Shown: positions 36,314 to 54,591 of the stretch, piece by piece | How positions within the stretch are numbered: the first letter of the stretch is position 1 | Layout: each line of letters opens with the position of its first letter | Assembly (NCBI GenBank): GCA_030526485.1 | Contig: JAUNCS010000001.1 | Location: forward strand, 62,001-126,000 | DNA: 64,000 bases | Reading direction: 5' to 3' | Origin: Erysipelotrichaceae bacterium | GTDB lineage: Bacteria; Bacillota_I; Bacilli_A; Erysipelotrichales; Erysipelotrichaceae | The notes under the pieces: model-generated | What the model was told of the DNA's origin: nothing | Seen by the model: the letters and a program-made list of their open reading frames with translations, nothing else | Databases searched by the model: none | Translations under genes and position numbers: made by a program

Positions 36314-36322
36314 TGATATAAT
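36314..36322 (+). promoter_or_regulatory. Extended -10 promoter for the 36349 unit
   Basis: TGATATAAT is a perfect extended -10, placed immediately behind the rmlB terminator. The predicted start is near 36329 and the leader about 20 bases, without an obvious Shine-Dalgarno before ATG 36349. Confidence 0.55.
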
Positions 36323-36348
36323 TCTAAAGACTGATAAAAGTAATTAAT

Positions 36349-38252: not shown

Positions 38253-38254
38253 AA

Positions 38255-39388
38255 ATGAAAAAGAAAATACTATTTGTAAATGATGAAATGACCATGGGTG
38301 GTGTAGCACGTATACTTAATACTTTCTTAAAGATGATTGACAAAGAAAAGTACGAAGTAGATCTTTTGGTGTTGCATAAAAGAGGTGAACTGTTGGCTGA
38401 GATTCCTGATGGAATAAATGTAATTGGTGGCAGTGACTTCTTTAACGCAATTGATATTCCTTTAAAACAGTGCAAAGGAAACATTTTATTATCAAAGCTA
38501 AGATTGCTGTTTTATATGAAAACAGGTCTTATCAAAAATAAGATAGCTAAAGAAAGAAAAAAGATTTTAAATAAACACTACGATATTGAATTCAGTGCCA
38601 AAGAAGGTTTCTGTACCATCTTTACTGGCTATGGCGATTCTGATAAGAAAGTAAACTGGGTGCAGGTAGACTATAAAGAATCTAACTACTCAAGCAATCA
38701 TATGGGCTTAGTTAAAGATGCACTAAGTCATATCGATATGAATATCGCCTGTTCAGAAAAGGTAATGGAATCTTATAAAGAACTGTTTGGTGTAAAAAGA
38801 ATCTGTGTTATTCACAATCTTGTGGATGAAGAAAGAATCAGAAATTTAAGTCTTCAAGCTAAAACAATTGAAACAGAAGATAAGAAAATCAATCTTATTA
38901 CTGTTGCCAGATTCCACAGACAAAAAGCCGTTGATCGCTTAATTAATATCCAGGCTAAATTAAAAGATTATTACAGTCTGATAATTATTGGCGATGGTGA
39001 ATTAAGAGAAGAATTATATGAACTGGCAAAGTCAAAAGGTGTCTATGATGACATTAAGTGGTTAGGCATCAGATCTAATCCATATCCGGATGTTAGAGAA
39101 TGTGACTTATTTGTAATGTCGAGTTTATATGAAGGTTATCCAACCATGACCGTAGAATCATTAATCAGTGATACCCCAGTTCTTACAACAAGAGTTGCGG
39201 GCGTAAATGAACAGATTAATGATACAAATGGCTGGATTGTTGAAAACAGCGAAGAAGCCTTATATGAAAAGTTAAATGAATTAAAGAATTCAAAAGACTT
39301 GTTAAGACAAATGAAAAACGATTTATTCAACTATCATTATGATAATGAAAGTATCTTAAATCGTTATTATGAAATATTTGAGAATTAA
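38255..39388 (+). CDS. GT4 glycosyltransferase
   Basis: 377 residues, GT-B fold family 4. N-terminal FVNDEMTMGGVARILNTFL, VNWVQVDYKESNY, and NIACSEKVMESY; C-terminal TVARFHRQKAVDRL, IGDGELREEL, WLGIRSNPYPDVRECDLFV, and SSLYEGYPTMTVESLISDTP with the E-x7-E region. It is the last gene of the 36349 unit. The stop TAA (39386-39388) overlaps the stop of the convergent gene (39385-39387), so the bases TTAA end both genes. No terminator hairpin is visible between them. Upstream spacing is two bases, without a clear Shine-Dalgarno. Confidence 0.9.
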   Translation: MKKKILFVNDEMTMGGVARILNTFLKMIDKEKYEVDLLVLHKRGELLAEIPDGINVIGGSDFFNAIDIPLKQCKGNILLSKLRLLFYMKTGLIKNKIAKERKKILNKHYDIEFSAKEGFCTIFTGYGDSDKKVNWVQVDYKESNYSSNHMGLVKDALSHIDMNIACSEKVMESYKELFGVKRICVIHNLVDEERIRNLSLQAKTIETEDKKINLITVARFHRQKAVDRLINIQAKLKDYYSLIIIGDGELREELYELAKSKGVYDDIKWLGIRSNPYPDVRECDLFVMSSLYEGYPTMTVESLISDTPVLTTRVAGVNEQINDTNGWIVENSEEALYEKLNELKNSKDLLRQMKNDLFNYHYDNESILNRYYEIFEN

Positions 39389-41067
39389 TCTAAGATATAA
39401 CTAAAATAATCCGCTTTATCAGGATAGTACTTCAACATTTCATTGTAGAAGTACTTTTTCATTTCAGGCGTATAATCGCTAATTCTTTCATAAACAGTTA
39501 TGTTGTGTCCTGTTTCCAAAGTGTTTTCATAAATTGGATGATAGATAGAAGAAATTAGTTCGTAGTTTATAATCGCGTCAGAAATTATGTCAAACATGTG
39601 CTGATAATTTCTATCGGTATAAACCATTGGATCAACAGTAATGATGTATTTAATGTACTGGTAATCTTTAGGGAAACCATCTCTAATATCAAAGACTGCT
39701 GAATCGATATTAGGGAAGTCAATATCTGGCAACATTGCGTTTCTTAATAAGTCGTCAGTAATAATACCGTACGCTCCACCACTTAAGAAAGCGGTGAAAG
39801 TATCATCTGGTTCTACTGACTTAATATATTCAGATATTTCCATCAGTTTATATTTATTCTCAAGAACTTCAGGATTCTTTCGAATATTGGTAAAGATGTA
39901 ATTATTACCCATATAAGTAAATATTGTAAGTGGTTGAATTAGTAACAATACAATAAGTAAATATTGAGCATATTTAACTTTAGATAGGTATTCAATGCCG
40001 ATCACAAACAGAATAATGATATTCAATAAGAATATGTAGTAATGATGGTATTCAAATGACTGAATCTTCCAGATCATCAGACATGGTACTACGATAGATA
40101 CAATATTTATTACTAATAGACTTCTATCTTTTTTAAATAAAACAAATAGTCCAATAACGGATATAACACAGATTATTGGTGAGATATTATTGATGAAAGA
40201 TAGAATCTTGCCATCGTGATTATAGAAGGCATAAGCCTCATCAAAATTATTTGTAAGAGTATTAATCATAAATGGTCTAAAGAATAATAGGCACACAATC
40301 AATAAAACAATTCCAGATGACAGAAGTTTAAATAAATCAGTAAACTTCTTTTCTTTATGGAATAACCATTTAATGAAATATGAAAGATAGAAACAGACAG
40401 CTGAATACAGATACCATCTTCTTAAAAAGATGGCTAAAAACATAAACAGATTGACTGCCAAATTATCAACGTTATCTATTTCTTTGAAATCAGGAAGAAT
40501 GACCAGTAAATATCCTAATGTGATAAATAGCAATCCTGAACAGTCAACCTTGCCATAAAACAATGTCAGATACAAAGGATAAACAACCAGCAAGGTGACT
40601 AATGGAATGTATCTGTTCTTGTTTAAATATTTAAAGTAGGCAATCTGCAATAAGACAAATGTTGGTAATAAGAATATTAGTAAATTTGTTAATGCGAAAA
40701 AGGTATATGACTGATTAAGTAATATAAAAGGCAGTCCAAAAAGAGCTGGCAGAAAACTGTAATCCATATTATTCATTGAAGAATAAACAAGTGGTAGTAT
40801 CTCTTTTGGATTTTCAAAGAATTTTAATCTTAAAGTTAAGGCTCTGATCCAATGACCGGCATAGTCGTAGGCATAAATAGTATTCTCTTTTTTGAAGAAA
40901 ACAACTAAACCAACCGCAATGATTATTGCAGCTAAAAGCGAATTAAATAGTATATTTTTATAGTTATTTCTTAAAGTATCTTTATACTTTCTATAAACTA
41001 TTAATCCTGATAAAAGAATGATTATAGGATAAATGGATAATAGTAACAGTCTAATAATGTTGTTCAT
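39385..41067 (-). CDS. GT-C-like membrane glycosyltransferase
   Basis: 560 residues with about 11 membrane segments and a soluble C-terminal domain (about 400-560). The first outer loop has YAYDYAGHW (D68, H72-W73), recalling the DEFxHW motif of the GT-C proteins at 9614 and 12436. It probably uses an undecaprenyl-phosphate sugar outside the cell. It is divergent from the GtrB-type enzyme at 41148, a natural donor source. The start ATG 41067 has no Shine-Dalgarno; TATAAT lies only eight bases upstream on the minus strand. The family assignment rests on topology and the loop motif. Confidence 0.6.
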   Translation of the reverse strand: MNNIIRLLLLSIYPIIILLSGLIVYRKYKDTLRNNYKNILFNSLLAAIIIAVGLVVFFKKENTIYAYDYAGHWIRALTLRLKFFENPKEILPLVYSSMNNMDYSFLPALFGLPFILLNQSYTFFALTNLLIFLLPTFVLLQIAYFKYLNKNRYIPLVTLLVVYPLYLTLFYGKVDCSGLLFITLGYLLVILPDFKEIDNVDNLAVNLFMFLAIFLRRWYLYSAVCFYLSYFIKWLFHKEKKFTDLFKLLSSGIVLLIVCLLFFRPFMINTLTNNFDEAYAFYNHDGKILSFINNISPIICVISVIGLFVLFKKDRSLLVINIVSIVVPCLMIWKIQSFEYHHYYIFLLNIIILFVIGIEYLSKVKYAQYLLIVLLLIQPLTIFTYMGNNYIFTNIRKNPEVLENKYKLMEISEYIKSVEPDDTFTAFLSGGAYGIITDDLLRNAMLPDIDFPNIDSAVFDIRDGFPKDYQYIKYIITVDPMVYTDRNYQHMFDIISDAIINYELISSIYHPIYENTLETGHNITVYERISDYTPEMKKYFYNEMLKYYPDKADYFSYILD

Positions 41068-41075
41068 ATGTGTTA

Positions 41076-41081
41076 ATTATA
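41076..41081 (-). promoter_or_regulatory. -10 element eight bases before the 41067 start
   Basis: On the minus strand TATAAT is followed by TAACACAT and ATG. No good -35 is visible. TATAAA at 41084-41089 is an alternative -10 that would leave a leader of about ten bases. Confidence 0.4.
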
Positions 41082-41100
41082 ACTTTATACCCCATAAAAA

Positions 41101-41130
41101 TGGACTAAGTATCTATTTATTAGGTAAAAT
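41101..41130 (+). promoter_or_regulatory. Probable promoter for the GtrB-like unit
   Basis: TGGACT (41101-41106), 18-base spacer, TAAAAT (41125-41130). GTGGAG follows at 41135-41140 as the ribosome-binding site for ATG 41148. Confidence 0.4.
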
Positions 41131-41147
41131 TGAAGTGGAGAATTTAA

Positions 41148-42065
41148 ATGATTAGTATTATTGTACCTTGTAAAAATGAAGAACAGGCTATCCCACTTTT
41201 TTATCCTGTTTTAATAGAAAACTTAAAGAATCTTAATCAGGATTATGAACTGATTATTGTGGATGATGGTTCAACTGATAAAACGGTTGAAGTCTGCATG
41301 GATTTAAAGAAAAAAGACCCTAATATCAAAGTTATCAGTTTTTCTAGAAACTTTGGTAAGGAAGCTGGTATGCTTGCTGGTTTAAAAGAATCAAAGGGTG
41401 ACTATGTCGCTATTATGGATGCTGACTTACAGGATCCACCTGCATTACTTGAAGAAATGTATCGATACGTAACTGAAGAAGGTTATGACAGCGCAGCTAC
41501 TTATCGTGTTGATAGAAAAGGTGAACCACCTATCAGATCTTTCTTTGCCAGACAGTTCTATCGCTTAATTAATTCAATGATTGATGTAGAAATTGTTGAT
41601 GGTGCCAGAGATTATCGATTGATGAGCAGAAAAATGGTTGATGCGATCATTTCACTTCCTGAATATAACCGTTTCTCAAAGGGTATTTTCTCTTGGGTTG
41701 GTTTCAAGACTAAATATGTAGAATTTGAAAATGTTGAAAGAGTGGCTGGTGAGACTAAATGGTCTTTCTGGAAACTGTTTGCTTATGCGATTGATGGAAT
41801 TGTTGGCTTTACAACAGCTCCACTTAGAATTGCGACTTACTCAGGTTTGACTGTATCGGTATTTGGCTTCTTATATATGCTTTATATCGTAATTAAAGCT
41901 TTAACTATTGGTGATCCGGTTGCCGGTTATCCAAGTCTAATTGCGATTATCTGCTTACTTGGCGGTATTCAGTTAATTGTAATTGGTATTATGGGTGAAT
42001 ATATTGCCAAGACTTATCTGGAATCTAAGAGAAGACCCCATTACATTATTAAGGAGATTAAATAG
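41148..42065 (+). CDS. Undecaprenyl-phosphate glycosyltransferase (GtrB type)
   Basis: 305 residues: GT2 catalytic domain plus two C-terminal membrane segments (about 226-250 and 262-285). Motifs: ISIIVPCKNEEQAIPLF, VDDGSTDKT, FSRNFGKEAGMLAGL, DADLQDPP (metal binding), DGARDYRLMSRKMVD, and VAGETKWSFWKL, which together define GtrB/CsbB-type enzymes that put glucose or a related sugar on undecaprenyl phosphate. The product would feed the divergent GT-C protein (39385), YfhO (33008) or another GT-C. No GtrA-type small flippase gene is present. GTGGAG is seven bases before ATG. Confidence 0.93.
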   Translation: MISIIVPCKNEEQAIPLFYPVLIENLKNLNQDYELIIVDDGSTDKTVEVCMDLKKKDPNIKVISFSRNFGKEAGMLAGLKESKGDYVAIMDADLQDPPALLEEMYRYVTEEGYDSAATYRVDRKGEPPIRSFFARQFYRLINSMIDVEIVDGARDYRLMSRKMVDAIISLPEYNRFSKGIFSWVGFKTKYVEFENVERVAGETKWSFWKLFAYAIDGIVGFTTAPLRIATYSGLTVSVFGFLYMLYIVIKALTIGDPVAGYPSLIAIICLLGGIQLIVIGIMGEYIAKTYLESKRRPHYIIKEIK

Positions 42066-43489
42066 TGCTGATAGGCGATTTCTATTACGAAATACCTAAA
42101 ACATTGCCACAATTAAATGCCACTTCGTTTTACTTTGTGGCATTTTGTTTTGTGGTTTTTTGTCTGTGTCGACCTTTTAAATCTTTCTTTAGACCTTATG
42201 TATTGTTGCTAGCAAATACAGTATTTGCCTATTCATTCGGTTTATACAATTTAAAGTGGTTACTGGCTTTATCTGTACTGAGCTATTTAATTAGCATATT
42301 AATTAATAAAATAAAGAATAAACATATTCTTTATGCATCCAATCTATTCTTTATTGGCATGCTGTTTGTTTTTAAATATGATTCAACTTTTGTTGGAAGA
42401 CTTATTATGCCATTAGGCATCTCTTTCTACATCTTTAAGATTGTTTCTTATTTGAATGATATTTATAAAGAAAAAATTGAGTGTGAATTTAATCCAATCC
42501 TATATCTTGATTATGTAATGTTTTTCCCTTGTATTACCGCAGGACCTATCAATAGAGCTAAAGACTTTTTTGAAGAATTAAAGAGTAAACATGAATTTGA
42601 ATATACCGATATCTCAACTGGTTTCTTTATGCTGGCGGTTGGTTTATTTGAAAAAGTTGTTGTCTGCGATTTTATAAAAACAGTAACTATTAGATGTTTG
42701 GACAATGTTGAACTTACGGGTATTAATGTTTTACTTGGTGTAATTCTTTATTCTTTTGAAATCTATCTGGATTTTGATTCGTATTCTAATATCGCAATCG
42801 GTATTGCCAGAATGCTAGGCTTCAAACTTAAAAAGAATTTCAATGTCCCTTATTTATCTGCTGGTATTAAGGATTTCTGGAATAGATGGCATATATCTTT
42901 ATCTTCATGGTTAAAGGATTATATCTATATTCCATTAGGTGGCAGCAGAAAAGGAATTGTAAGACAATATTTAAATATTTTAATTGTCTTCTTATTCTCT
43001 TCTTTATGGCATGGTATGACTGTTAACTTTGTTATCTGGGGTATGGGTCATGCGGTATTCAGAGTATTGGAAGATACTTTTGAAAGATATGTATATCCAG
43101 GAAGCAAAAATAAGTTTATTGCTTTATTTGAAAAACTATTAAAGATTGTGCTTACATTTGTTTTGGTTACAATTCTTTGGGTGTTCTTCAGATATCAGAA
43201 TGTAAATGACGCCTTAGCTGTCTTTAATAGAATTATTGATGGAGGCTCATTTAGTTATGAAACAATTGGTTTAACCCTAATGGAATTCAAGTGGTTAGTG
43301 ATTCTGGTTGTTAGTGTTATCTTGTCTGATTTGATCAGATATTTTACAGATATATTTGAATTTATGGGAAAGAGAATCTTTATTCTTCGCTGGGCATTAT
43401 ATGTAGTGATGATTCTTGTTTTCCTTGTATTTGGCGTATATGGTGGCGGTGCCTTTGAGGCAGGAGACTTTATTTATAAATGGTTCTAA
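42065..43489 (+). CDS. MBOAT family O-acyltransferase, copy 1
   Basis: 474 residues with about 11 membrane segments. The MBOAT core is clear: GPINRAKDFFEEL, DFDSYSNIAIGIARMLGF, NFNVPYLSAGIKDFWNRWH, SSWLKDYIYIPLGGSRKG, and SSLWHG with the invariant His. Such proteins take acyl groups (acetyl in alginate AlgI; D-alanine in DltB) and pass them outward. The start is GTG 42065, overlapping the preceding TAG by one base; no later ATG would keep the first segment. The partner SGNH protein begins ten bases before its end. Three MBOAT genes lie in this window, each next to a lumen-side partner. Confidence 0.92.
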   Translation: MLIGDFYYEIPKTLPQLNATSFYFVAFCFVVFCLCRPFKSFFRPYVLLLANTVFAYSFGLYNLKWLLALSVLSYLISILINKIKNKHILYASNLFFIGMLFVFKYDSTFVGRLIMPLGISFYIFKIVSYLNDIYKEKIECEFNPILYLDYVMFFPCITAGPINRAKDFFEELKSKHEFEYTDISTGFFMLAVGLFEKVVVCDFIKTVTIRCLDNVELTGINVLLGVILYSFEIYLDFDSYSNIAIGIARMLGFKLKKNFNVPYLSAGIKDFWNRWHISLSSWLKDYIYIPLGGSRKGIVRQYLNILIVFLFSSLWHGMTVNFVIWGMGHAVFRVLEDTFERYVYPGSKNKFIALFEKLLKIVLTFVLVTILWVFFRYQNVNDALAVFNRIIDGGSFSYETIGLTLMEFKWLVILVVSVILSDLIRYFTDIFEFMGKRIFILRWALYVVMILVFLVFGVYGGGAFEAGDFIYKWF

Positions 43490-44835
43490 AGATTATTAAA
43501 AAGTTCTGGCAATTGATTAAGATTTGCTTATGCATCTGTTTATTAACAGGAACTTTTTACTATGGCTATAACTATTTAAACGACAGTTTTAGAACCAAAG
43601 GTGTTGAATATAATGAATCATTCCACAATCTTCCTGAAAACAGTATGGACATTATTGTGCTAGGCTCAAGTCATGCACAATATTCTTATGTACCATCTTT
43701 TGTATATCAGAACACTGGCTTATATTCATATGTTCTAGGAAGTGCATGCCAGCCTTTAAAGGTTTCTTATGAAATGCTTAAGGAAGCTTTAAAGACACAA
43801 AGTCCTGAATTGATTATTTTAGAAGTTTATACTGCCACTCCTCTTAAATTATGGTGTATGGCAGACAGTTGCTATGTATTGGCTGAATATCAGATGCGTG
43901 GTGAAGAAAAACAGAATGTCATAAATATGCTTCCAGAAGAAAAAGCTGAGTTATATAAAAATGAATTCCTGGTTAATCATAATAACTGGAAGGATTTAAA
44001 TGATTTTAAGGAAATTCTAAATCAGCCAGATAGAGAATTCATTGATCCGACATTTGGTTTTGTCTGTCAGGATCCTCCAGAATATGTTGATAACTGGTGG
44101 TATCCAAATGTATTTAAAGAAACAGTAGATGTTGAACTCGATGAAGAAGATTTAACAGCTTTAAATAATATCTATAATTTGTGTAATGAGAATAATATTG
44201 AAATATTGCTGTACATGATGCCGATGGATGGCTTGGATGTAGAAAACCAGTCTTATAGATATAAAGTTTGGCAGTGGGCAGAAGAAAGAAATATTAAATA
44301 TTTGGATTTTGTAGATTTAGCTGAAAAGTTGGATTATAAAATGAGAATTCACAACGATGGTGCGCATTCTCTGATTAATGGTTCGAGTTACATTAGTGAT
44401 TATTTAAGTGAATATGTTGCAAATGAATATAAGTTTAATAATCATAATAATGATGATTTCCTGAATACTTTGTACAACAAATACGTAAATATGTATTCTT
44501 ATAAAGTATTTAAATCAGAGCCGGTATTTTCTAAGTATAAGAACAGATTAGAAAAATATTCTGGTTTACTTGTTGTGGGTATTTATAATCACAATGAACA
44601 AATTGATACTTTTGTTAGAACAGTTTGTAATGAAGAAGAATATATCAAAAATAGATATGTAATTTATAAAAACGAAATTATTGCCAGTGGAGATGACTAT
44701 CTGTGGTGTGAAGTAAATGGCAGATATATTGAAATTGTTGGAAATTCATTGAGAATTGATAACGAAACAATGAACTGCAATCGTAATACCATAGTCATCT
44801 TTGATGAAAATGGTTCAGGATATGTTGTTAAATAG
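43480..44835 (+). CDS. Membrane-anchored SGNH-like acyl-transfer partner, copy 1
   Basis: 451 residues. A single N-terminal membrane anchor (about 11-33) precedes an outside domain. DIIVLGSSHAQYSY (57-70) carries the GxSH variant of the SGNH serine block (S63/S64-H65). A C-terminal Asp-His is plausible at HNDGAHSL (about 288-295), where H and D lie close together. Such proteins accept acyl groups from the adjacent MBOAT and place them on polysaccharide. It overlaps the MBOAT gene by 10 bases. The region after residue 300 is not recognised and might bind the polymer. Confidence 0.75.
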   Translation: MVLKIIKKFWQLIKICLCICLLTGTFYYGYNYLNDSFRTKGVEYNESFHNLPENSMDIIVLGSSHAQYSYVPSFVYQNTGLYSYVLGSACQPLKVSYEMLKEALKTQSPELIILEVYTATPLKLWCMADSCYVLAEYQMRGEEKQNVINMLPEEKAELYKNEFLVNHNNWKDLNDFKEILNQPDREFIDPTFGFVCQDPPEYVDNWWYPNVFKETVDVELDEEDLTALNNIYNLCNENNIEILLYMMPMDGLDVENQSYRYKVWQWAEERNIKYLDFVDLAEKLDYKMRIHNDGAHSLINGSSYISDYLSEYVANEYKFNNHNNDDFLNTLYNKYVNMYSYKVFKSEPVFSKYKNRLEKYSGLLVVGIYNHNEQIDTFVRTVCNEEEYIKNRYVIYKNEIIASGDDYLWCEVNGRYIEIVGNSLRIDNETMNCNRNTIVIFDENGSGYVVK

Positions 44836-44892
44836 ATGGAGTTTGAGAACATGTGCAATAAGGTCCTGTTCATTTAAGTAATTTGTTTTTGA

Positions 44893-44901
44893 TGATAAAA
44901 T
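44893..44901 (+). promoter_or_regulatory. Possible extended -10 before the LCP unit
   Basis: TGATAAAAT matches TGn plus TAAAAT in the 109-base gap after the SGNH gene. No good -35. AAAGGA (44931-44936) serves ATG 44945. Confidence 0.3.
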
Positions 44902-44944
44902 AAAAAAGTATGTGTTTTTAGATTACAACAGAAAGGAAATGAGG

Positions 44945-45628
44945 ATGAAACTTTTTAAAAGTAGAAGAAAAAGAGTAAAACGTTTATTATTGGTTATCTT
45001 ACCTTTCTTTTTAATGATGTTAATATTTGCCTTCTGTGCTTATAGAACTATTTCTGGAAAAGTTAGTGATGCGACAGGTACAAACAATTCACCAACAAGT
45101 TCCAAGAACGTGATTGATTCTATGGGTTATAAACTGAGAGACAATGCAACAGATTTACAAAAAGAATACTTTGCAGAATTGAAAAAAGCTGTAGAAGACG
45201 GTACAGATAAGGGTGAAATCGCAAGACAGGTTGCTAAAAACTATGTCGCTGATTTCTATACATGGTCAAATAAAAGAGGTTCTTATGATGTTGGCGGTTT
45301 ATGCTATGTTCATGCAGAGTCTACTGGCAATGTTTATGCCCGTGCTAAAGACGGCTATTACAAATATGTTACTTATTACATCAATGAACTAGGTGCTAAG
45401 AATTTACTTGAAGTATCTAGTGTTGAAGTGAGTGGTGGCGACAAGACTGGTACATTTGAATTAAATGGAAAAGTGTATGACAGTTACTTCATTACTTGTG
45501 ACTGGACTTATGATAATGAAGATAATTTAGCTCCAGTAACAAGAAACTTTGTGAAAAGAGAATACTTTAACGTAATTGAAAGAGAAGATGGACGCTTTGA
45601 AATCGTTGAAGCGTATGGTGATAACTAA
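44945..45628 (+). CDS. Membrane-anchored extracellular protein of unknown function
   Basis: 227 residues from ATG 44945, eight bases after AAAGGA; an ATG at 44939 is too close to it. A strongly basic N-terminus (KLFKSRRKRVKR) and one membrane helix (about 14-33) are followed by a Ser/Asn/Thr-rich linker (about 43-55) and a soluble domain with an alpha-helical part (60-100) and a beta-rich part (110-227). I do not recognise the family; the helix-then-sheet pattern resembles NTF2-like or TcpC-like accessory domains, but this is a guess. The stop overlaps the LCP start (TAATG). The operon position suggests an extracellular partner of the LCP protein. Confidence 0.85.
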   Translation: MKLFKSRRKRVKRLLLVILPFFLMMLIFAFCAYRTISGKVSDATGTNNSPTSSKNVIDSMGYKLRDNATDLQKEYFAELKKAVEDGTDKGEIARQVAKNYVADFYTWSNKRGSYDVGGLCYVHAESTGNVYARAKDGYYKYVTYYINELGAKNLLEVSSVEVSGGDKTGTFELNGKVYDSYFITCDWTYDNEDNLAPVTRNFVKREYFNVIEREDGRFEIVEAYGDN

Positions 45629-48162
45629 TGGAAAATAATAATCACGTAAAAAAGAAAATGCCTCCAAAAGTGAAGGCTGTTAGATATATTTCTGTTATTA
45701 CTACAATACTTGCTTATGCAATGGTAGCGGTTTTTATCTTACTTTCATATAGATATTACACTATCGAATTAAAAACCATCATGTTCATTATCGGTGCTAT
45801 TATCTGCTTATTATTGATAATCGGCATTATGTTCTATGTTGGTTTTAGATATAAAGACTTCCGTATCGGTATTGCAACTGTAGTTTTATCTTTGCTGGTA
45901 ACAGTGTTTGCTGCAAGCGGTGTAGTTGTTATTAATAAGGTGAATAAAACTGTAGACAACATTATTGATAACTCAGGTAAAGAACAGTATGAAATCGTTG
46001 GTGGCGTCTTCACTTATTATCAAAAGAATGCAAACTCAACTATTTATACAGACTTTGACGATATTAAAAATGCAAAGAATTTAACAGTTGGTGTTCTTTA
46101 TGATAACGGTGTTGGTACCGGTACAATGGCAAAAGAACTTTTAGAAAAAGAAAATGTTGATGCCAAGATTGTACAGTTCAACACAACAGATGATTTATTA
46201 TCTGCTTTAGTTGGTGAAGAAGAAAAAACATCAGTAGATTTAGCAGTATTCCCTGCTTCTTATAGACAGAGATTATTAAACGATGACAATGTTGACTATA
46301 GTCAGTATTTAGATCGCATGGTTGATTTCTATTCTTTCGAAGAAAAAGTATTAACCGGTGAAAACGAAAATGCGAATAAGGATTTATCTGGTGAACCTTT
46401 CAATATCTTGTTAATTGGTTTCGCTCCAGAAAATGAAGCAATGACATACGGCTTAGCTGACTCGATTATTGTTGCGACAGTAAATCCGCAGACATTAACA
46501 GTGGTAATGACTTCAATTGCCAGAGACTCATTTGTACCAATCAGCTGTTATGGTGGCAGCAGAGATAAGATTAATGCTGCTCGTGGTACATCTAGAGCCT
46601 GCTTAATGGAAACTGTTGGTAACCTATTGGATATGAAAATTGACTATTACATGGAAGTTAACTTCCTTGGTGTAGTACAGATTGTAGATGCTATTGGTGG
46701 TATCTTAATCAATAACCCAGTAGAATTCGTTGGTCAAAGTGCTTCTACAAATAGAGGCGAATATACAGTACTTGTTCCAGCTGGTGAAGCAGTACCAGCC
46801 GATGGTGAAATGGCTTTGGCTTTCGCAAGAGAAAGACATGCAATGCCAGGTGGTGACTTTGATAGACAGAAACACCAGCAGGAAGTTATTGCAGAAATTG
46901 TTAGAGGCTTACTTGAACTTAGAGATGTAAATAAAGCTTTAAAGGTAATGGAAGCTGCTGGTAACAATATCAGTACTAACCTGAGCCTAAATCAGTTAAC
47001 TGGTGTATTTAATTATTTATTAAGTATTAAGAATGAAAATAACTTCTCAACTTTTAACATGATCGATATTCAAAGTATGAGAGTTACTGGTTATTCTTCT
47101 TGGACTTATAACCAGTCAATGAAACTTCCTTTATGGATTTATAAACTGTATAACGGTTCTATTAAGGAAGCAACAGATAGAATTGATGATGTTATGAATG
47201 AATATGGCGGAATTCAGAATATCAGTGACCAGCACTCATATATGAAATTCCAGGTTCAATTCCCATATAACAGGGGCTTATTGTACAGCACATATTTCAA
47301 TGAAGAACAGGTACATGAGCAATTGCCAACATACTATCCATTCTTAACAAAGTATTCTTATGAAGAAGCTGTATCTTGGGCAGTAAGCAATGGTGTAACA
47401 CTAAACATTACATTCATTGACGAAGATAGTCCTAACTATATTGAAAGCCAAAGAGGTAGAGTTGTTGACCAATTCCCTAGACAGGGTTCACTTGTTTCAG
47501 AATATCCTACAGGTTCAATTACAGTTATGGGTTCTATGGATCCAAATTATGCTCCATCATACACTGTTGAAAACTGTAATGATTTAGATTCTTGTAAGGC
47601 ATTTGCTGATAGCAAGGGTATCAGTATGTCTATTGAATATAAGACAACTACTGATGCAAGCCTTGATGGTAAATTTATTGAAACCAACTATAAGAATGGC
47701 GATAAGATCAAAAAGAATCAGACATTGGTTGTATATATTTGGAAACTGAAAGAACAGGTTGAAGTTCCTGATTACACCGGAATGAAACCTTCAGATTACA
47801 TGTCACTTCTAACAGGTAAGAAGTTGAATCCTGTAATTGTTGAAATTGAAGAAGGTGCTACTGAATTGAATAATGGCACAATAGCCAAAACAAATCCAGC
47901 GGTAGGACAAATGTCGGATGGTAAAGTAACTATTTATGTATATAAATATGTTGCTCCAAAGGAACCGCTTCCTGGTGATACTGATAAACCAAATACAGGT
48001 GATGGCACTGGTGATGGAGAAAACCCTGGTACAACACCGGGTGGTGAAGACAAGCCAAATACAGGCGGTGAAACTGGAGGTGGCGGTAATACCGAAACAC
48101 CACCAACCCCAGACCAACCTCAAACTCCAGATTCTGGAGAACAATCTGGCGAAGGACAATAA
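45628..48162 (+). CDS. LCP-family glycopolymer ligase with PASTA-like repeats
   Basis: 844 residues. Three membrane segments (about 19-40, 49-71, 79-102), an outside accessory domain (about 120-245), then the LytR-CpsA-Psr domain (about 258-430): FNILLIGFAPENE, ADSIIVATVNPQT, TSIARDSFVPISCYGG with the catalytic-region Arg, KINAA, and GGDFDRQKHQQEVI (about 407-420). LCP proteins transfer undecaprenyl-linked glycopolymers to peptidoglycan. From about 560 three PASTA-like units follow, each with a D/NY...A-type helix and a Val-rich strand pair (the third begins VEVPDYTGMKPSDYM), and then a Gly/Pro/Thr/Glu-rich tail (about 775-844). PASTA modules bind peptidoglycan. The LCP start overlaps the upstream gene; a strong terminator follows. 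Confidence 0.93.
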   Translation: MENNNHVKKKMPPKVKAVRYISVITTILAYAMVAVFILLSYRYYTIELKTIMFIIGAIICLLLIIGIMFYVGFRYKDFRIGIATVVLSLLVTVFAASGVVVINKVNKTVDNIIDNSGKEQYEIVGGVFTYYQKNANSTIYTDFDDIKNAKNLTVGVLYDNGVGTGTMAKELLEKENVDAKIVQFNTTDDLLSALVGEEEKTSVDLAVFPASYRQRLLNDDNVDYSQYLDRMVDFYSFEEKVLTGENENANKDLSGEPFNILLIGFAPENEAMTYGLADSIIVATVNPQTLTVVMTSIARDSFVPISCYGGSRDKINAARGTSRACLMETVGNLLDMKIDYYMEVNFLGVVQIVDAIGGILINNPVEFVGQSASTNRGEYTVLVPAGEAVPADGEMALAFARERHAMPGGDFDRQKHQQEVIAEIVRGLLELRDVNKALKVMEAAGNNISTNLSLNQLTGVFNYLLSIKNENNFSTFNMIDIQSMRVTGYSSWTYNQSMKLPLWIYKLYNGSIKEATDRIDDVMNEYGGIQNISDQHSYMKFQVQFPYNRGLLYSTYFNEEQVHEQLPTYYPFLTKYSYEEAVSWAVSNGVTLNITFIDEDSPNYIESQRGRVVDQFPRQGSLVSEYPTGSITVMGSMDPNYAPSYTVENCNDLDSCKAFADSKGISMSIEYKTTTDASLDGKFIETNYKNGDKIKKNQTLVVYIWKLKEQVEVPDYTGMKPSDYMSLLTGKKLNPVIVEIEEGATELNNGTIAKTNPAVGQMSDGKVTIYVYKYVAPKEPLPGDTDKPNTGDGTGDGENPGTTPGGEDKPNTGGETGGGGNTETPPTPDQPQTPDSGEQSGEGQ

Positions 48163-48176
48163 AATATATAACAAAT

Positions 48177-48220
48177 AAATCCCACTATCATGGCTCACAA
48201 ACCTGATAATGGGATTTTTT
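48177..48220 (+). terminator. Terminator after the LCP gene, possibly bidirectional
   Basis: Left arm 48177-48190 pairs with 48204-48217 (14 positions, one mismatch), followed by a T run to 48220. It separates the LCP gene from the convergent acyltransferase gene. Confidence 0.8.
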
Positions 48221-48232
48221 AATTAAGATAAG

Positions 48233-49318
48233 TTATTTGTTATTAAGCAATTTGTTATCAATATAGTTTTGAAATTTATCTATTATAGCTAAATATGGTT
48301 TTTCAATTGTTTTCTGTCTAATTAGATCAATTATTGAACAAAATGCAAATAAACCAATTACTGCGAATATTGAATATGGAATCAATCCATAGCTTCCTTT
48401 GTAATATGATCCTTTTAATACTTGCTGCCACCAGATAGGTCTGAAGAACTCAGTATCGTGAATTAGATAAACGCCAAATATAGTAGATGCGACAGTATTA
48501 ATGAATTTGTTGTAAGGAATCTTGATATTAACAAATGTCATGAAGATACATATTGCCAGTATCAACATTAACGGATGCCTCATTTCATTAAATCTATAAA
48601 CTCTGCCAGCCCAGTATTCACTTTTTGTACCAATGAACAGAAGTACTACACTAAGCAAGAAAGCAGTTAACGTAAGGATTACTGAAGCGGATAAATAGTG
48701 TTTTAACTTTAACTTTGGAGACAGACCATATAATCTAATGTACCCCGCGATGCTATATAGTAAGATGAACCAGATTAATTCGTTTGATTGGTATTTGTCT
48801 CTAAATATAGAAGGTAATAATACCCATAAACCTAATATGAATAACAGATAATTCTGATATTCTTTCTTTGTAAAAGACAACAGTAATCGATTGATATATG
48901 GATGTAATAAATACATTACAAAGTAAGTAGAAACAAACCACCATCGTTGTGAGGCTATCGGTAAGAAGCTATAAATTATTTCTGTTTTGCTTAAAGTTCC
49001 TTTACAAACAAACAGGTAGATTGCCGCCATTCCAATAGAATAGAAAACTACCTGACCCCAGAATTTAGCTATTCTCTTAAAATTCTGTTTTAATGATTTA
49101 TTAGTTATTAAGTAGTAACCAGAAATAAGTACAAAGATATTAACACCAAGTTTGCCTCCTATTGTAAGTAAGCTTAACCACAACCTTGTTTTCATCACAT
49201 AAGAGTTATCAAAATAGAAGCCGCTATGTACCGTAAAGTGATGAAACATGATCATCAGCATAGTCACTATTCTCAAAAGTTCTATATTAGAATCTCTATT
49301 CTTTTTTGTATTAGTCAT
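48233..49318 (-). CDS. Acyltransferase 3 family membrane protein
   Basis: 361 residues with about 10 membrane segments. N-terminal RDSNIELLRIVTMLMIMFHHF holds the family His pair, followed by GGKLGVNIFVLISGYYLI, the second conserved segment of acyltransferase-3 proteins. It probably acylates the polymer or its precursor at the membrane. On the minus strand GGGGA lies about six bases before ATG, and a TATAAT at 49346-49351 would start transcription about 20 bases further upstream, so this gene has a normal leader, unlike the divergent GT2. It is a single-gene unit placed between two forward operons. Confidence 0.87.
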   Translation of the reverse strand: MTNTKKNRDSNIELLRIVTMLMIMFHHFTVHSGFYFDNSYVMKTRLWLSLLTIGGKLGVNIFVLISGYYLITNKSLKQNFKRIAKFWGQVVFYSIGMAAIYLFVCKGTLSKTEIIYSFLPIASQRWWFVSTYFVMYLLHPYINRLLLSFTKKEYQNYLLFILGLWVLLPSIFRDKYQSNELIWFILLYSIAGYIRLYGLSPKLKLKHYLSASVILTLTAFLLSVVLLFIGTKSEYWAGRVYRFNEMRHPLMLILAICIFMTFVNIKIPYNKFINTVASTIFGVYLIHDTEFFRPIWWQQVLKGSYYKGSYGLIPYSIFAVIGLFAFCSIIDLIRQKTIEKPYLAIIDKFQNYIDNKLLNNK

Positions 49319-49395
49319 AAAAAATCCCCATTGATTAACGCTCTAATTATATTAAATAAAGGCAGAGATATAAAAGCTTGGTATAGCTCATGGGT

Positions 49396-49401
49396 TATAA
49401 T
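49396..49401 (+). promoter_or_regulatory. -10 element eight bases before the 49410 start
   Basis: GGTTATAATTAATAAGT precedes ATG 49410 directly. It is almost the same string as before ATG 4085 (GGTTATAATAAATAAG). There is no Shine-Dalgarno, and no convincing -35 was found. Confidence 0.45.
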
Positions 49402-49409
49402 TAATAAGT

Positions 49410-50378
49410 ATGGAAAAATTAACTGTGGTTGTAGCTATCTACAACGTTGAAAACTATTTAGACAAATGTTTACAGTCTTTAAAAGAACAGACTTGTAACG
49501 ATTATAAAGTATATTGTGTAAATGATGGTTCTACTGATGGCAGTAGAGATATCATCATGAAATATGTGAATGTTGATCCGAAGTTTATTGTTTTGGATAA
49601 ACCAAATGGTGGCTTAAGTGATGCCAGAAACTATGGTATTGAAAGATGTGTTACTGAATATATTTCTTTTATTGATGGCGATGACTTTGTTTCTTATGAC
49701 TATGTGGAAAGAAGTCTTAAGGAAATGGAAGAAAAGAAACTGGACATGTTAGTGTTTGCTTATAACCAGTATTATCTGGCTACTAACAGCAATGAAAAAG
49801 TAAATCTTAGAATTGCAAATGGTGTTTATAACCTTAAGGATAAAAAAGACTTGCTAGCTTATACACCTAATGCTGCCTGGAACAAGGTTTATAGAACTTC
49901 TTTATTTACTGATAACAACATCACCTATCCATTTGGGTACAGACATCAGGATTTAGGCACTACACCTAAGTTACTATTGAAGTCTAATAGAGTGGGCTAT
50001 ATTAATGATGCTTTATATAACTACTTAATTGATAGACCTAATAACATTACTGCGCAAATCGATAAAAAGTTATATCACATTATCGACATGTCAAAAGAAG
50101 TGATGGATTACTATATTGAAAATCATGATTTTGATAACTATGTTAATGAATATGACTATCTGGTTAAGAGAAACTTTATTCAGTCATTAAGAAAAGCAAT
50201 GAAACTTGAAGATAAGAAATTCGTCTTAAAATTCATTGACGATATTTTCGATACATCTGATAAATATTTTAAAAAGAGTAAACATACCTATCAGATTGCT
50301 GAAGAAGATGGTGATTCTGTATATTTATCTAGATTTAAATGTAAGGCTTACTACATCTTAAGAAAGTTGAAGGGATAA
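49410..50378 (+). CDS. GT2 glycosyltransferase
   Basis: 322 residues, GT-A fold. LTVVVAIYNVENYLDKCLQS (residues 4-23), VNDGSTDGSRD, KPNGGLSDARNYGIERCVTE, DGDDFVSYDYVE (metal-binding), WNKVYRTSLF, YRHQDLGTTP. It is closely related to 36349 and 37305. The acceptor-side motif HQDLGTTP replaces YEDI/MxxP of those copies, which suggests a different acceptor or donor. It is the first gene of the 49410-55785 unit with MBOAT, DHHW and flippase genes. It carries a 37-base stretch identical to 36543-36579. The start at 49410 may be leaderless. Confidence 0.92.
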   Translation: MEKLTVVVAIYNVENYLDKCLQSLKEQTCNDYKVYCVNDGSTDGSRDIIMKYVNVDPKFIVLDKPNGGLSDARNYGIERCVTEYISFIDGDDFVSYDYVERSLKEMEEKKLDMLVFAYNQYYLATNSNEKVNLRIANGVYNLKDKKDLLAYTPNAAWNKVYRTSLFTDNNITYPFGYRHQDLGTTPKLLLKSNRVGYINDALYNYLIDRPNNITAQIDKKLYHIIDMSKEVMDYYIENHDFDNYVNEYDYLVKRNFIQSLRKAMKLEDKKFVLKFIDDIFDTSDKYFKKSKHTYQIAEEDGDSVYLSRFKCKAYYILRKLKG

Positions 50379-51770
50379 ATGAATTTTTCTTCATTAACTT
50401 TTGTTTTATATTTTCTGCCGCTTAGTATTCTGCTTTTTCAATTAGTTGATAAGTATTTATCTAAAGCGGTAAATATATATCTAATATTAGTTAGTATCTT
50501 TTTCTATGCCTGGAGCGATATTAAAATCACAATAATTTTCTTATTGTCGTGCATAGGTATTTTTATAATTGGAAAAATAATAGAAAGAACAAAATCTAAA
50601 GTTTTATTGACTGCATCAATCGCGATTATTGTGGGTGTCTTGTGCTTCTATAAATATGTTGATTTTTCTATTGGGATAGTTAACAAGTTACTTCATTATG
50701 AAATTGATTTGCTGTATCTTGTTTTGCCATTAGGTATATCATTTGCTTCATTTGAAGCTATATCTTATTTGGTTGATATCTATAACGGAAATAAAAGTGG
50801 TTCATTAACAGAGACATTATTGTTTTTATTATTCTTTCCCAAGGTTTGTTCTGGCCCAATAGTGACCTGGAAAAGATTCAAAGTTGCGTTAAAAAACAGA
50901 GAAAGCAATTTTAATAATCTTGTAAGTGGTGCTGAAAAAATAGTTATTGGTCTGGGCAAAAAGGTAATTCTTGCTGATTCTTTAGGAACAATTGTGGCAA
51001 CTGTTTCGGCCAATTATTTAAAAATCGATAGTATAAGCGCAATGCTTTGTGCCTTATGTTTTATGCTGCAACTTTATTTGGATTTCTCAGGTTATTCAGA
51101 TATGGCGATAGGTATATCCAGAATTTTTGGCTTTAGTTTCGCTGAAAACTTTAATTATCCATATCTCTCTAAATCAGTTGGTGAATTCTATAGAAGATGG
51201 CATATTTCACTGGGTACATTTTTAAAAGAATATATTTATATTCCTCTTGGTGGTTCTAGAAAAGGTAATGTATATCTGCATTTACTGATTGTCTTCCTTG
51301 TTTCTGGTATCTGGCATGGTAATGGCACATCATATATTGTCTGGGGTCTTTTAATCGGTTTAGCTGTCTGCCTGGAGAGAAAATTATCTGATGAGTTAGC
51401 TAAAGTTCCTGATGTTATTAGATGGCTTTTGACAATGGTTTTCATTTATTTCACCTGGATATTGTTTATGATGCCTAGTCTTAGCACGTCAGTTGCCTTT
51501 GTAAAAACGATGTTTGCTGGAATATCAGGCAACAGTGTTCTATTAACGTATAAATATTATTTCAATTTAAGAATAATAATTATCATGCTTATTTCTATTG
51601 TTGTGTCAGTTTGCAACTATAAAGATATTAAGTATAAAATCGTTTTAATTATCAACAACAGAAAGTTTTTATCACTGTTAAAGTATTCTTTCTTGTTGCT
51701 TGTCTTTGTTGTGTCAATTGTGTTCATTGTTAACTCAACTTACTCACCATTCTTATATTTCAGGTTCTAA
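50379..51770 (+). CDS. MBOAT family O-acyltransferase, copy 2
   Basis: 463 residues with about 11 membrane segments. N-terminus FSSLTFVLYFLPLSILLFQL is the AlgI-type start. Core motifs: FFPKVCSGPIVTWKRF, LDFSGYSDMAIGISRIFGF, NFNYPYLSKSVGEFYRRWH, LKEYIYIPLGGSRKG, and VSGIWHGNGTSYIVWG with the invariant His. It starts immediately after the GT2 stop and ends one base before the DHHW-type partner gene. It should supply acyl groups to that partner outside the cell. Confidence 0.93.
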   Translation: MNFSSLTFVLYFLPLSILLFQLVDKYLSKAVNIYLILVSIFFYAWSDIKITIIFLLSCIGIFIIGKIIERTKSKVLLTASIAIIVGVLCFYKYVDFSIGIVNKLLHYEIDLLYLVLPLGISFASFEAISYLVDIYNGNKSGSLTETLLFLLFFPKVCSGPIVTWKRFKVALKNRESNFNNLVSGAEKIVIGLGKKVILADSLGTIVATVSANYLKIDSISAMLCALCFMLQLYLDFSGYSDMAIGISRIFGFSFAENFNYPYLSKSVGEFYRRWHISLGTFLKEYIYIPLGGSRKGNVYLHLLIVFLVSGIWHGNGTSYIVWGLLIGLAVCLERKLSDELAKVPDVIRWLLTMVFIYFTWILFMMPSLSTSVAFVKTMFAGISGNSVLLTYKYYFNLRIIIIMLISIVVSVCNYKDIKYKIVLIINNRKFLSLLKYSFLLLVFVVSIVFIVNSTYSPFLYFRF

Positions 51771-51771
51771 T

Positions 51772-53145
51772 ATGAAGAAAATTAAGACTTTATTTTTAGT
51801 ATCTATATTATTAGTAATTACTGTCTTAACAGTAAGTTTTGATTTTGAAAAAAATAAGGTATCCTTGCTAGATAATAGAATGCTGACTGAACTCAATGTG
51901 ATTAGCTCGGATAATATCGATAACTATATCAGTGATAGAGTTGGCTTGCGTAAGGAAATGGTTGGAATATACAACTGGATTAATGCAAAACTATTCAATG
52001 TTTCTACCCATCCAAGTAAGCTGCTAGGCAAAGATAATAATCTATTTCCAATGCCTGATGATTATGTTGAATATGGAAGTTATCATGAGAAATTTTTGAA
52101 TTCAATAAAAATTATTCAGGATTATTGTTTAAACAGGGGTGTGGATTTCTACTTCGTATTAGATCCATCAAAGGCAGTGATTGAATCTTATTTACTTCCA
52201 GATGGTGTAAATGTAAATTCAAAATGGATTGAAGAATTTGTAGAAAAATCAAAAGAAAAAGGCATTAACATTATTGATAACTATAGTTATTTAAAAGAAA
52301 TCAGTGAAAATGGCGAAAGATTATATAACGATCAGTATGATGTATATCACTGGAGTGACTATGGTGCTTATATGGGTATAAATAATATTTTAGAAAATAT
52401 TAAAAATGACTATAACAATATTGGCGTAAATAAATTATCAGATTTTAATATTGAAAAACATAACATTAAAGGTTCTTTATTTGGTTCGCAGTTTATTGAT
52501 GAAGAAATCGATTACTATACACCGAAATTAAAAACGGATAATCATGCAGATGCTTATAAAGAAAACCTAAATTTCCATGAAGATTTTGAAGAATTTTATT
52601 ATTTTGAAACCGGTGATGAAGAAAAACCAAATGTTCTAGCTTTTGAGGGATCATATCTGATTTCTGAAGATAGAACCGAAAGATTTATAGCCAATAATTT
52701 TAATAAAACCATTGCAGTACATAACTATCAGAACATCTACAATATCGATTACTATTTCAATATCTTCCAACCAGATATCGTTATATTTGAAATAGCTGAT
52801 TATGTGCTTATTGAATACTATTTTAGTGAGTACTATATGGAAACTATGAAACTGCAGGAAGCTTATTCAGATTATTCTAGCTATAAAGTTGAGGAAATTG
52901 AATTGTCGGGATATGAAATATCTCAAAAAGGAATGTATGAAGAAATGATAGTTCCAAAGGAACTTGAGTATACATATGCCTATCTAATAACAGAAAATGG
53001 GGTATATGATTTCTATGATTTAGACAATGACTATATGGCAATAACTCTATTAAGTAATACAATAGAGAATGCTGACGAAAGCAAAATCACGTTTGTAGAC
53101 ACTGTCTCACAAATTAAATATGAATGTAAGATAAAAGGAAGTTAA
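51772..53145 (+). CDS. DHHW/AlgX-like acyl-transfer partner
   Basis: 457 residues from ATG 51772. The frame is open from 51700, but that part overlaps the MBOAT gene. One N-terminal membrane anchor (about 5-23), then LLDNRMLTELNVISSDNIDN (32-51) and DRVGLRKEM, the AlgX/AlgJ-like entry motif, and YFVLDPSKAVIESYLLPDG. YHWSDYGAY (192-200) provides the DxxHW-type active-site strand named for the DHHW family. It is thought to transfer acyl groups from the MBOAT protein to polysaccharide. The second half (about 270-457) is not recognised and is probably beta-rich. The junction TTCTAATATGAA is the same as in the minus-strand pair at 56803. Confidence 0.8.
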   Translation: MKKIKTLFLVSILLVITVLTVSFDFEKNKVSLLDNRMLTELNVISSDNIDNYISDRVGLRKEMVGIYNWINAKLFNVSTHPSKLLGKDNNLFPMPDDYVEYGSYHEKFLNSIKIIQDYCLNRGVDFYFVLDPSKAVIESYLLPDGVNVNSKWIEEFVEKSKEKGINIIDNYSYLKEISENGERLYNDQYDVYHWSDYGAYMGINNILENIKNDYNNIGVNKLSDFNIEKHNIKGSLFGSQFIDEEIDYYTPKLKTDNHADAYKENLNFHEDFEEFYYFETGDEEKPNVLAFEGSYLISEDRTERFIANNFNKTIAVHNYQNIYNIDYYFNIFQPDIVIFEIADYVLIEYYFSEYYMETMKLQEAYSDYSSYKVEEIELSGYEISQKGMYEEMIVPKELEYTYAYLITENGVYDFYDLDNDYMAITLLSNTIENADESKITFVDTVSQIKYECKIKGS

Positions 53146-53147
53146 AA

Positions 53148-54590
53148 ATGGATAAGAAAGTAATAATAAACTACATCTATAACATTCTCTACCAGGTAGC
53201 AAAGAATGTTCTATCAATTGTAATAGTTCCGTACGTATTAGGAACACTGGGTGAAAGTGTACTGGGCATCAGTGACTTCGCCAGCAATATTGCCTCATGG
53301 TTTATTCTGTTTGGTGTATTAGGCGTAAATATCTATGGTAATAGAGAAATTGCCAAGGTAAGAGACAACAAGGAAAATCTATCTAGAACTTTCTTTGAAA
53401 TCTTATTTATGCAGGTACTAAATATGGCAGTAGCTTTAACACTATTTGTTTGCTACAGCAAGTATCTGGTTACTTCAAACAACTTAATCTACTACCTTAC
53501 ATGTTTAACAATCATCTCTAATGCTATTGATATTTCCTGGTTCTACTTTGGTGTTGAATACTTCAAAATTGTTTCAATCAGAAATATTGTTATTAAGATT
53601 CTGGGTGTTGCCCTAATTATGCTGCTAGTTAAAAAGCCAGAAGATCTATGGATTTATGTAATCATCAATGGCGCTGGTGACTTACTTGGAAATATTGCAA
53701 TGTTCTTTGGCTTAAAGAAATATATTTCTAAAGTTAAATTCAGTATTATTGATGCTTATAAACATCACTTCATCTCAACATTTATTTTATTTATCCCAAC
53801 TATCGCTAATAATGTTTATAACTTATTAGATCAGACAATGCTTGGTTTCTTAATTGAAGATAAGGGTGAAGTTGCTTTATATAAGACAGCGCATAGCTTT
53901 GTTAAGATGTTTCTATACTTTACTACATCTCTAGGTGCAGCTATGCTTCCAAGAATTGCTAACACATTCTATAAAGACAATAACTATGATGAAGTAAGCA
54001 AGTATATTAACACAACATTCAAATACACATTATTTATCGCTATTCCAATGATGTGCGGTTTCTGTTTTGTGGCTCCATACTTTATCCCATGGTACCTGCC
54101 AAAACAGCCATCAATCGTCCAACTGATTCAGGTATCTTGTCCAATTATTCTTTTGATCTCTGTATCAAATGTTCTTGGTTATCAGTTCCTTATTCCAACA
54201 GGACACAATAAGGAATATACAACTTCATTGATTATTGGTGCTGTAACAAACGCAATCGCTAATTTCATCTTAATCCCTAGATTCTTAGGTATTGGTGCTG
54301 CTATCGGTAGTGTGGTGGCTGAATTTGCCGTAATGTTTACACAGTTCCTGTTTGTAAGAAATAAGCTGAAGGTTCATGCCTTAGGCAATACTATTAAATA
54401 TGCAATTGCAGCTGCTTTAATGTCAGCAATCGTCGTTGTACTTGGTAACTTCTTGGGTGCATCATTTATTACTAATGCTATTCAGGCAGTACTTGGTGCT
54501 TCTATCTATTTCATAACTCTAATTATCTTAAAAGAAGAAATGGTATTCAGTGTTGTTGAAAAATTAAAACAGCGTATCAAGAGGGCTTAA
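53148..54590 (+). CDS. Polysaccharide flippase (Wzx/PST family), copy 2
   Basis: 480 residues, about 14 membrane segments. It is a close paralogue of 5637-7088: the same start (DKKVIINYIYNILYQVAKN), LGESVLGISDFASNIASWFI, NREIAKVRDNKENLSRTFFE, ISWFYFGVEYFKIVSIRN and LDQTMLG. It probably exports a lipid-linked unit similar to that of copy 1. AAGGA lies upstream, two bases after the DHHW-type gene. A paralogous pair 46 kb apart in one locus points to duplication of a whole polymer module. Confidence 0.88.
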   Translation: MDKKVIINYIYNILYQVAKNVLSIVIVPYVLGTLGESVLGISDFASNIASWFILFGVLGVNIYGNREIAKVRDNKENLSRTFFEILFMQVLNMAVALTLFVCYSKYLVTSNNLIYYLTCLTIISNAIDISWFYFGVEYFKIVSIRNIVIKILGVALIMLLVKKPEDLWIYVIINGAGDLLGNIAMFFGLKKYISKVKFSIIDAYKHHFISTFILFIPTIANNVYNLLDQTMLGFLIEDKGEVALYKTAHSFVKMFLYFTTSLGAAMLPRIANTFYKDNNYDEVSKYINTTFKYTLFIAIPMMCGFCFVAPYFIPWYLPKQPSIVQLIQVSCPIILLISVSNVLGYQFLIPTGHNKEYTTSLIIGAVTNAIANFILIPRFLGIGAAIGSVVAEFAVMFTQFLFVRNKLKVHALGNTIKYAIAAALMSAIVVVLGNFLGASFITNAIQAVLGASIYFITLIILKEEMVFSVVEKLKQRIKRA

Positions 54591-54591
54591 G

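Follow-up and report, generated by a model that had tools for sequence, protein, structure and literature searches.

How does an enzyme that attaches glycopolymers to the bacterial wall find its acceptor strands, and how is synthesis of the polymer coupled to its attachment? Both questions are touched by a gene pair in a 64,000-nucleotide stretch of a 1.95 Mb Erysipelotrichaceae genome (GCA_030526485.1, contig JAUNCS010000001.1, positions 62,001 to 126,000; hereafter the window, by whose numbering all coordinates below are given), in which the gene for an LCP-type protein with three C-terminal PASTA units directly follows the gene for a small membrane protein, here called the partner. The explanation that we favour, and judge rather probable, is that the protein is a glycopolymer ligase that grips the wall through its PASTA units and acts with the partner as an assembly factor. 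To our knowledge, the wall polymers of this gut lineage have been little studied.

An LCP protein with three PASTA units

The protein and its parts, all on the forward strand, are laid out as follows.

45628..48162, + strand: LCP-PASTA protein, whole open reading frame with stop, 844 amino acids, ATG start (sequence, Pfam, AlphaFold model)
45664..45963, + strand: three predicted membrane helices, residues 13-43, 48-75 and 78-112 (AlphaFold model)
45982..46362, + strand: Cps2A-type accessory domain, residues about 119-245 (VIA-align to Cps2A and to substrate-binding proteins)
46387..47208, + strand: LCP catalytic core, residues about 254-527, about 250-527 in the AlphaFold model (Pfam, VIA-align to Cps2A, column counts)
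47335..47526, + strand: PASTA 1, residues about 570-633 (22.6 bits alone; local hidden Markov model)
47581..47739, + strand: PASTA 2, residues about 652-704 (16.8 bits alone; local hidden Markov model; AlphaFold model)
47758..47946, + strand: PASTA 3, residues 711-773 (42.2 bits alone)
47947..48159, + strand: Gly/Pro/Thr-rich tail, predicted disordered (translation; predicted local distance difference test score, pLDDT, below 50)

Pfam assigns residues 277-426 to LytR_cpsA_psr (E 6.3e-35, 121 bits against a cut-off of 24.6) and finds PASTA in three stretches of the whole protein (E 8.6e-17, 61.3 bits against a cut-off of 23.2). Scored singly against the same PASTA cut-off, the third unit lies above it, the first just under it and the second lower still, making the second the weakest of the three. 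An AlphaFold model built from an 81-sequence alignment (mean pLDDT 80.5) is mostly confident for the first two units and falls below pLDDT 50 over residues 735-844; the third unit is thus poorly modelled, yet it is the best of the three by sequence score. In a Foldseek search of the PDB, the top match of the model is Cps2A (409-416 columns, E 3e-27 to 9e-27), with further matches to other LCP proteins and to the tandem PASTA units of PknB and PrkC (E 3e-5 to 8e-4). Because the Pfam and Foldseek matches agree, the combined architecture is real, and the possibility that weak repeats had been over-interpreted as PASTA is ruled out. The initial annotation, which described an LCP ligase with three membrane segments, an accessory domain, three PASTA-like units and a Gly/Pro-rich tail, is borne out by Pfam, AlphaFold and Foldseek, and the repeats that it called PASTA-like can be named PASTA.

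That annotation had also singled out the domain preceding the core as an extra outer domain, a view that does not hold. Model residues 122-526 superpose on Cps2A residues 110-481 (VIA-align Z 33, 363 residues), and the excerpt of an LCP review (PMC7831098) delimits the Cps2A accessory domain as 111-213 and the LCP domain as 214-481. Since the alignment runs through both, what precedes the core is the accessory domain that Cps2A-type LCPs ordinarily have, and an unusual addition is ruled out.

By VIA-align, the accessory domain taken by itself aligns over 92-106 residues (Z 11.1-12.7) with type-2 substrate-binding proteins, among them proteins that bind phosphate, phosphite or amino acids. At E ≤ 0.01, relatives in the genus match the Pfam families Phosphonate-bd (10/17) and NMT1 (9/17), as do plain Cps2A-like LCPs of a sister family (5/13 and 6/13, respectively); the window protein itself matches neither profile. 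A two-lobed binding protein with a ligand cleft was not what we found: the domain spans about 127 residues, of which 92-106 align, whereas substrate-binding chains mostly have 220-280, so a single lobe is represented. From the model, the accessory domain of the Cps2A-type LCP subgroup thus resembles a single lobe of a type-2 substrate-binding protein and lacks the other lobe that would complete a cleft. No paper noting this likeness was found in a search outside which the original Cps2A structure paper lay.

The core retains the Arg, Asp and Gln set of the active site. Among the 81 aligned sequences, R299, D300, R401, R403, D410 and R413 are invariant, and Q417 is present in 80, with a gap in the remaining one. 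Judged by motif spacing and the Cps2A alignment, R299, R401, D410, R413 and Q417 correspond to R267, R362, D371, R374 and Q378 of Cps2A, which are named active-site residues in the excerpted review (PMC7831098), and D278, present in 81/81, corresponds to the second magnesium-binding Asp (Cps2A D246). LCP catalytic activity is likely. At residue 266 (46423-46425), the site of the first magnesium-binding Asp, the window protein has Ala, and other acidic residues lie nearby.

Spread and turnover of the tail

The long protein is present in 17 of 25 genus genomes, that of the window included, and on named contigs, which rules out an oddity of one assembly. The remaining eight genomes, 57-90% complete, yielded nothing, fragments or distant matches, and a search of the family added three more genus genomes, two with the protein (G195, G215) and one, 95% complete, without it (G171). 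By Pfam, LCP and PASTA occur together in all 17 aligned genus members, window protein included.

A wider set of named contigs comprised the best 80 of 384 relatives, the closest of which comes from an Erysipelotrichaceae assembly from goat jejunum; 73 of these loci have an intact 3' end, and the seven truncated ones were excluded from the PASTA count. Pfam PASTA was run on the window protein, the 17 genus proteins and three named examples, and the other loci were scored with a local PASTA profile iterated on the LCP tails themselves (the strict model matches 47/80 loci, the iterated one 50/80). By the local profile, 49 of the 73 complete loci carry PASTA, with one unit in 16, two in 23, three in eight and four in two. 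Pfam found a single PASTA unit in the LCP of Holdemania filiformis (L085, 24.4 bits), where the partner gene is also present, as well as one in an Erysipelothrix assembly (32.5 bits), and none in the LCP of locus L126. With the local profile, none was seen in 13 plain LCPs from a sister family of the order, and PASTA-like units appeared farther away in the class, in 1/4 LCPs examined in family f12 and 5/6 in family f11; a match in locus L180 at residues 135-188 was discarded as spurious. Within this lineage, the LCP-PASTA architecture is common; none of the 13 plain sister-family LCPs tested has it.

PASTA presence switches at least nine times on a tree of 104 LCPs, suggesting that the units are an exchangeable add-on. 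(The tree omits the truncated L112, L125 and L129, the duplicate L088 and three LCP paralogues from the window's own genome, and five further 3'-truncated rows were left uncounted for PASTA changes.) Other tails are also found: List_Bact repeats in 11/17 genus members, divergent InlB B-repeats in 3/17, and Pro-rich tails that occupy the PASTA position in some relatives. Within the genus, P567, W584, Q615, G620 and V633 of the first PASTA and its preceding linker are invariant or nearly so. By sequence, then, the PASTA tail is a lineage-wide yet exchangeable extension. In L024, L029, L031 and their relatives, List_Bact-like repeats with repeated Cys-x-x-Cys motifs follow two PASTA units, replacing the third unit of the window protein.

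Besides the LCP, the window's own genome encodes PASTA kinase-like, PASTA penicillin-binding-like and PASTA-only membrane proteins (contigs C43, C36 and C57; loci L002, L004 and L007), named by eye from their translations; one PASTA-only protein has 612 amino acids. When the LCP-PASTA profile was run on this genome, three units of the PASTA-only proteins scored highest (37-44 bits; their other units 2-31), with 21 bits for the best kinase unit, 19 for the best unit of the penicillin-binding protein (PBP) and 13 for the window's own third unit. These scores do not favour the view that the LCP units arose directly from those of the genome's own kinase or PBP, domains of 64 residues giving no reliable tree.

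The partner gene and its settings

The gene preceding the LCP gene and the surrounding locus have these coordinates.

44945..45628, + strand: partner gene, 227 amino acids from ATG (alternative GTG start at 44912); helix 7-43, outer domain about 60-227 (sequence, model)
27027..55785, no strand assigned: glycan locus around the LCP gene (Pfam on tested genes; two open reading frames in this range lay outside the test)

The stop codon of the partner overlaps the LCP start codon by one base. The partner has no Pfam match above cut-off, its only match up to E 1 being tRNA_anti-like (E 0.064), and no NCBIfam match; LytR_C is not among the families matched by the window partner in Pfam, nor among the 25 listed of the 50 families matched by 65 partner sequences. 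A model built from 65 sequences (mean pLDDT 92.5) starts with a single long helix, followed by an outer domain that combines helices with four main strands and has NTF2, VirB8, DotI and ketosteroid isomerase as fold neighbours (best Z 9.4, 2.7 Å, 110 residues, VIA-align). On this model, the partner would cross the membrane with a single helix and carry an outer domain of predicted NTF2/VirB8-like fold.

The partner gene, which the initial annotation had overlooked, is conserved beside the LCP gene. In a profile search, a partner homologue lies directly upstream of the LCP gene in 77 of the 80 loci, its end ranging from 190 nucleotides inside to 19 nucleotides before the called LCP start, and the three loci without one (L053, L094 and L125) have less than 300 nucleotides of DNA upstream of the LCP gene. 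The partner accompanies PASTA-bearing LCPs in 48/49 loci and PASTA-less ones in 22/24, the exceptions being contig ends. The stretches read around the 13 plain sister-family LCPs and the three other LCPs in the window's own genome, up to 1.5 kb on each side, gave no partner homologue. A single clade for all partner-adjacent LCPs is rejected (approximately unbiased test, p-AU 2.6e-58), and adjacency needs at least two changes on the tree. In G145, G165 and G179, the gene pair occurs in two tandem copies.

Across the phylum, the partner was found in 76 of 392 genomes (84 matches). At least 26 of the 84 share the strand of an LCP gene and lie within 300 nucleotides upstream of it; another is 462 nucleotides away. 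The count is a lower bound, since two LCP candidates were scored per genome. In the sister family f2, the domain sits inside a frame of 567-630 amino acids in 15/16 genomes. Eight of these fusions (L214-L221) were read. In L214, a Glycos_transf_4 enzyme (Pfam, 6.4e-40) leads through a hydrophobic segment into the partner domain, and the other seven share 69-90% identity with it over their N-terminal 340 residues. Four f2 genomes searched for PF00953 each gave two matches, a frame of 327-333 amino acids and the fusion of 569-630; in other families, among 14 genomes searched in all, TagO-sized Glycos_transf_4 frames have 356-402 amino acids. We take the 327-333 frame to be MraY and the longer enzymes to be TagO, from size and general knowledge. 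Because the other PF00953 frame is MraY-sized, the only TagO/WecA-like enzyme in these four f2 genomes carries the partner domain.

Further settings differ by family. In f11, the partner directly follows a Sulfatase-family gene in 15/16 loci read, which we call LtaS-like from size and family, and in f22 it comes directly after a Glyphos_transf (TagF-type) gene in 2/3 loci read. In other genera of f1, one gene of 396-416 amino acids separates the partner from a facing LCP gene in 7/11 loci read, and five tested of these seven intervening genes have no Pfam family. A protein of 409-416 amino acids without Pfam family stands in this position in L222, L223, L224, L247 and L249. In f7, the partner faces an LCP gene in two loci; in one f7 genome, it comes directly after mreB (L252, 924-1916 and 1981-2703). 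Some neighbours, namely a DHHA1/tRNA_SAD protein, an M29 peptidase and a PfkB kinase, have no clear wall-polymer role.

The locus around the window's own gene pair includes GT1 and GT2 glycosyltransferases, two MBOAT and two Acyl_transf_3 proteins, sugar-nucleotide enzymes, YfhO and a flippase-like Polysacc_synt protein, with some tested genes lacking a Pfam family. Beside an MBOAT gene, 43480-44835 encodes a 451-amino-acid protein with no credible Pfam match that resembles, by eye, a DltD/SGNH-type acyltransferase partner.

Proposed mechanism, alternatives and known systems

We propose that a Cps2A-type LCP transferase would move a glycan from its undecaprenyl-pyrophosphate carrier to peptidoglycan, the glycan most likely being the polymer made by the surrounding locus, as its genes suggest. 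The C-terminal PASTA units would probably grip peptidoglycan and so hold the catalytic core near acceptor strands. Two analogies underlie this step: the PASTA domains of S. aureus PBP1 bind peptidoglycan and carry most of its wall binding (excerpt of PMC9426605), and the extracytoplasmic domain of PknB binds lipid II, which governs its location and activity (excerpt of PMC6428115). By such analogy, the suggestion of the initial annotation that the repeats may hold the ligase on nascent peptidoglycan is plausible. The LCP protein would act together with the NTF2-like protein encoded beside it. Anchored in the membrane, this partner would probably serve as an assembly factor, whether scaffold or chaperone, that gathers glycopolymer enzymes on the outer face; a role of this kind is suggested because the domain family is tied to initiation (the TagO fusion), polymerisation (LtaS-like and TagF-like enzymes) and ligation (LCP).

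Several observations weigh against this explanation. The first magnesium-binding Asp site (Cps2A D234) holds Ala, Ser or Asn in 62/81 sequences and Asp in 19/81. The protein misses the equivalog cut-off of the NCBIfam model LCP_trans_Cps2A (143.3 versus 650 bits), although it aligns near full length (residues 15-524 on profile positions 6-476 of 477), so by sequence it shares the layout of the Cps2A subgroup but is no strict orthologue by this model. PASTA is lacking in 24 of the 73 3'-complete relatives, 22 of which still have the partner gene and two of which lie at a contig edge; this argues against a core role of the units. For the partner, Foldseek gave no match at E ≤ 0.001 (best E 0.034), so that the NTF2-like assignment is one of fold, and this fold is common and shows no function. 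Moreover, of the 14 genomes searched, G120 carries the partner and LCP genes as a pair but only an MraY-sized Glycos_transf_4 frame, the partner of the f11 locus L251 has no sulfatase-sized gene and no LCP gene directly beside it, and in the other four of the 11 f1 loci an LCP gene is either missing from the stretch (three loci) or 5.7 kb off (one).

Alternatives can be weighed for each part. The PASTA units might be mere spacers, structural filler that carries the C-terminal tail across the wall without specific binding, as could be read from the variation of unit number from 0 to 4, the other tails that relatives bear and the repeated changes of PASTA presence on the tree; the conserved positions of the first unit and its linker, together with the wall binding of PBP1 PASTA domains reported in the excerpted PMC9426605, speak against filler, and we consider this unlikely. 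Alternatively, the units could work like those of PASTA kinases, activating the ligase on detection of muropeptide or lipid II instead of tethering it. Here the LCP core and PASTA appear from the topology to lie on the same side of the membrane, so that no signal need cross it, and the LCP-PASTA profile favours units of PASTA-only proteins over those of the genome's own kinase and PBP; even with kinase PASTA structures among the Foldseek matches and lipid II binding by the outer domain of PknB setting its location and activity (PMC6428115, excerpt), sensing strikes us as quite improbable.

The partner, in turn, could take no part in the LCP reaction and owe its place in wall-polymer operons to chance or to co-regulation alone. 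The enzymes encoded next to it are different ones in other families, an LCP gene is not always close by, a few of its neighbours lack a clear wall-polymer role, and its fold is a common one. Against mere neighbourhood, it lies directly upstream in 77/77 testable loci, the linkage persists with or without PASTA, with contig ends as the exceptions, and its recurrent contexts are LCP, the TagO fusion, sulfatase and Glyphos_transf; we hold this alternative to be improbable. The favoured explanation, of a wall-gripping LCP ligase with an assembly factor, admits an extension that we offer tentatively, as possible at somewhat less than even chances: the partner domain may be a general coupling factor of wall-glycopolymer assembly in the class, docked onto or fused with TagO, LtaS- or TagF-like enzymes or LCP and so joining initiation, growth and wall attachment of the polymer in one outer-face complex, with exchangeable PASTA tails placing the ligase on peptidoglycan.

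Were the ligase to bear a wall-binding module of its own, removal of PASTA would directly test whether attachment loses its place. The partner, for its part, is a concrete candidate link between initiation, polymerisation and attachment, for which the gene fusion is an independent clue.

As for precedent, the word PASTA is absent from the excerpted LCP review (PMC7831098) and from PMC12220298, and in the open-licence literature, among the matches listed, we found no paper on a PASTA-LCP fusion, on the partner or on an NTF2 domain with LCP. Separate elements of the system have known counterparts. VirB8/DotI/TraM-type domains share with the partner a single membrane helix and, by its predicted fold (Z 7-9), an outer domain like NTF2, whereas the partner's neighbours are mostly wall-polymer enzymes, with no type IV secretion family among those tested with Pfam. 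The mycobacterial proteins VirR and Cei, which have LytR_C only, are likewise one-helix membrane proteins proposed to assist LCP ligation (PMC7831098, excerpt); in contrast, no LytR_C match was seen for the partner, whose predicted fold is NTF2-like and whose domain is also fused to TagO-type enzymes. S. aureus PBP1 and S. pneumoniae PBP2x share the order of an outer catalytic domain followed by C-terminal PASTA units, but the window protein is an LCP transferase by its domains rather than a transpeptidase, and has three units and a disordered tail. The closest resemblance is to Cps2A/CpsA (Wzg) of streptococci, with the same succession of membrane region, accessory domain and LCP core, the conserved catalytic Arg, Asp and Gln residues, and a setting in a glycan locus; unlike these, the window protein adds a C-terminal PASTA extension of about 320 residues, has the first magnesium-ligand Asp replaced and is co-encoded with an NTF2-like partner. 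The joining of PASTA to LCP is a new combination within a known enzyme class.

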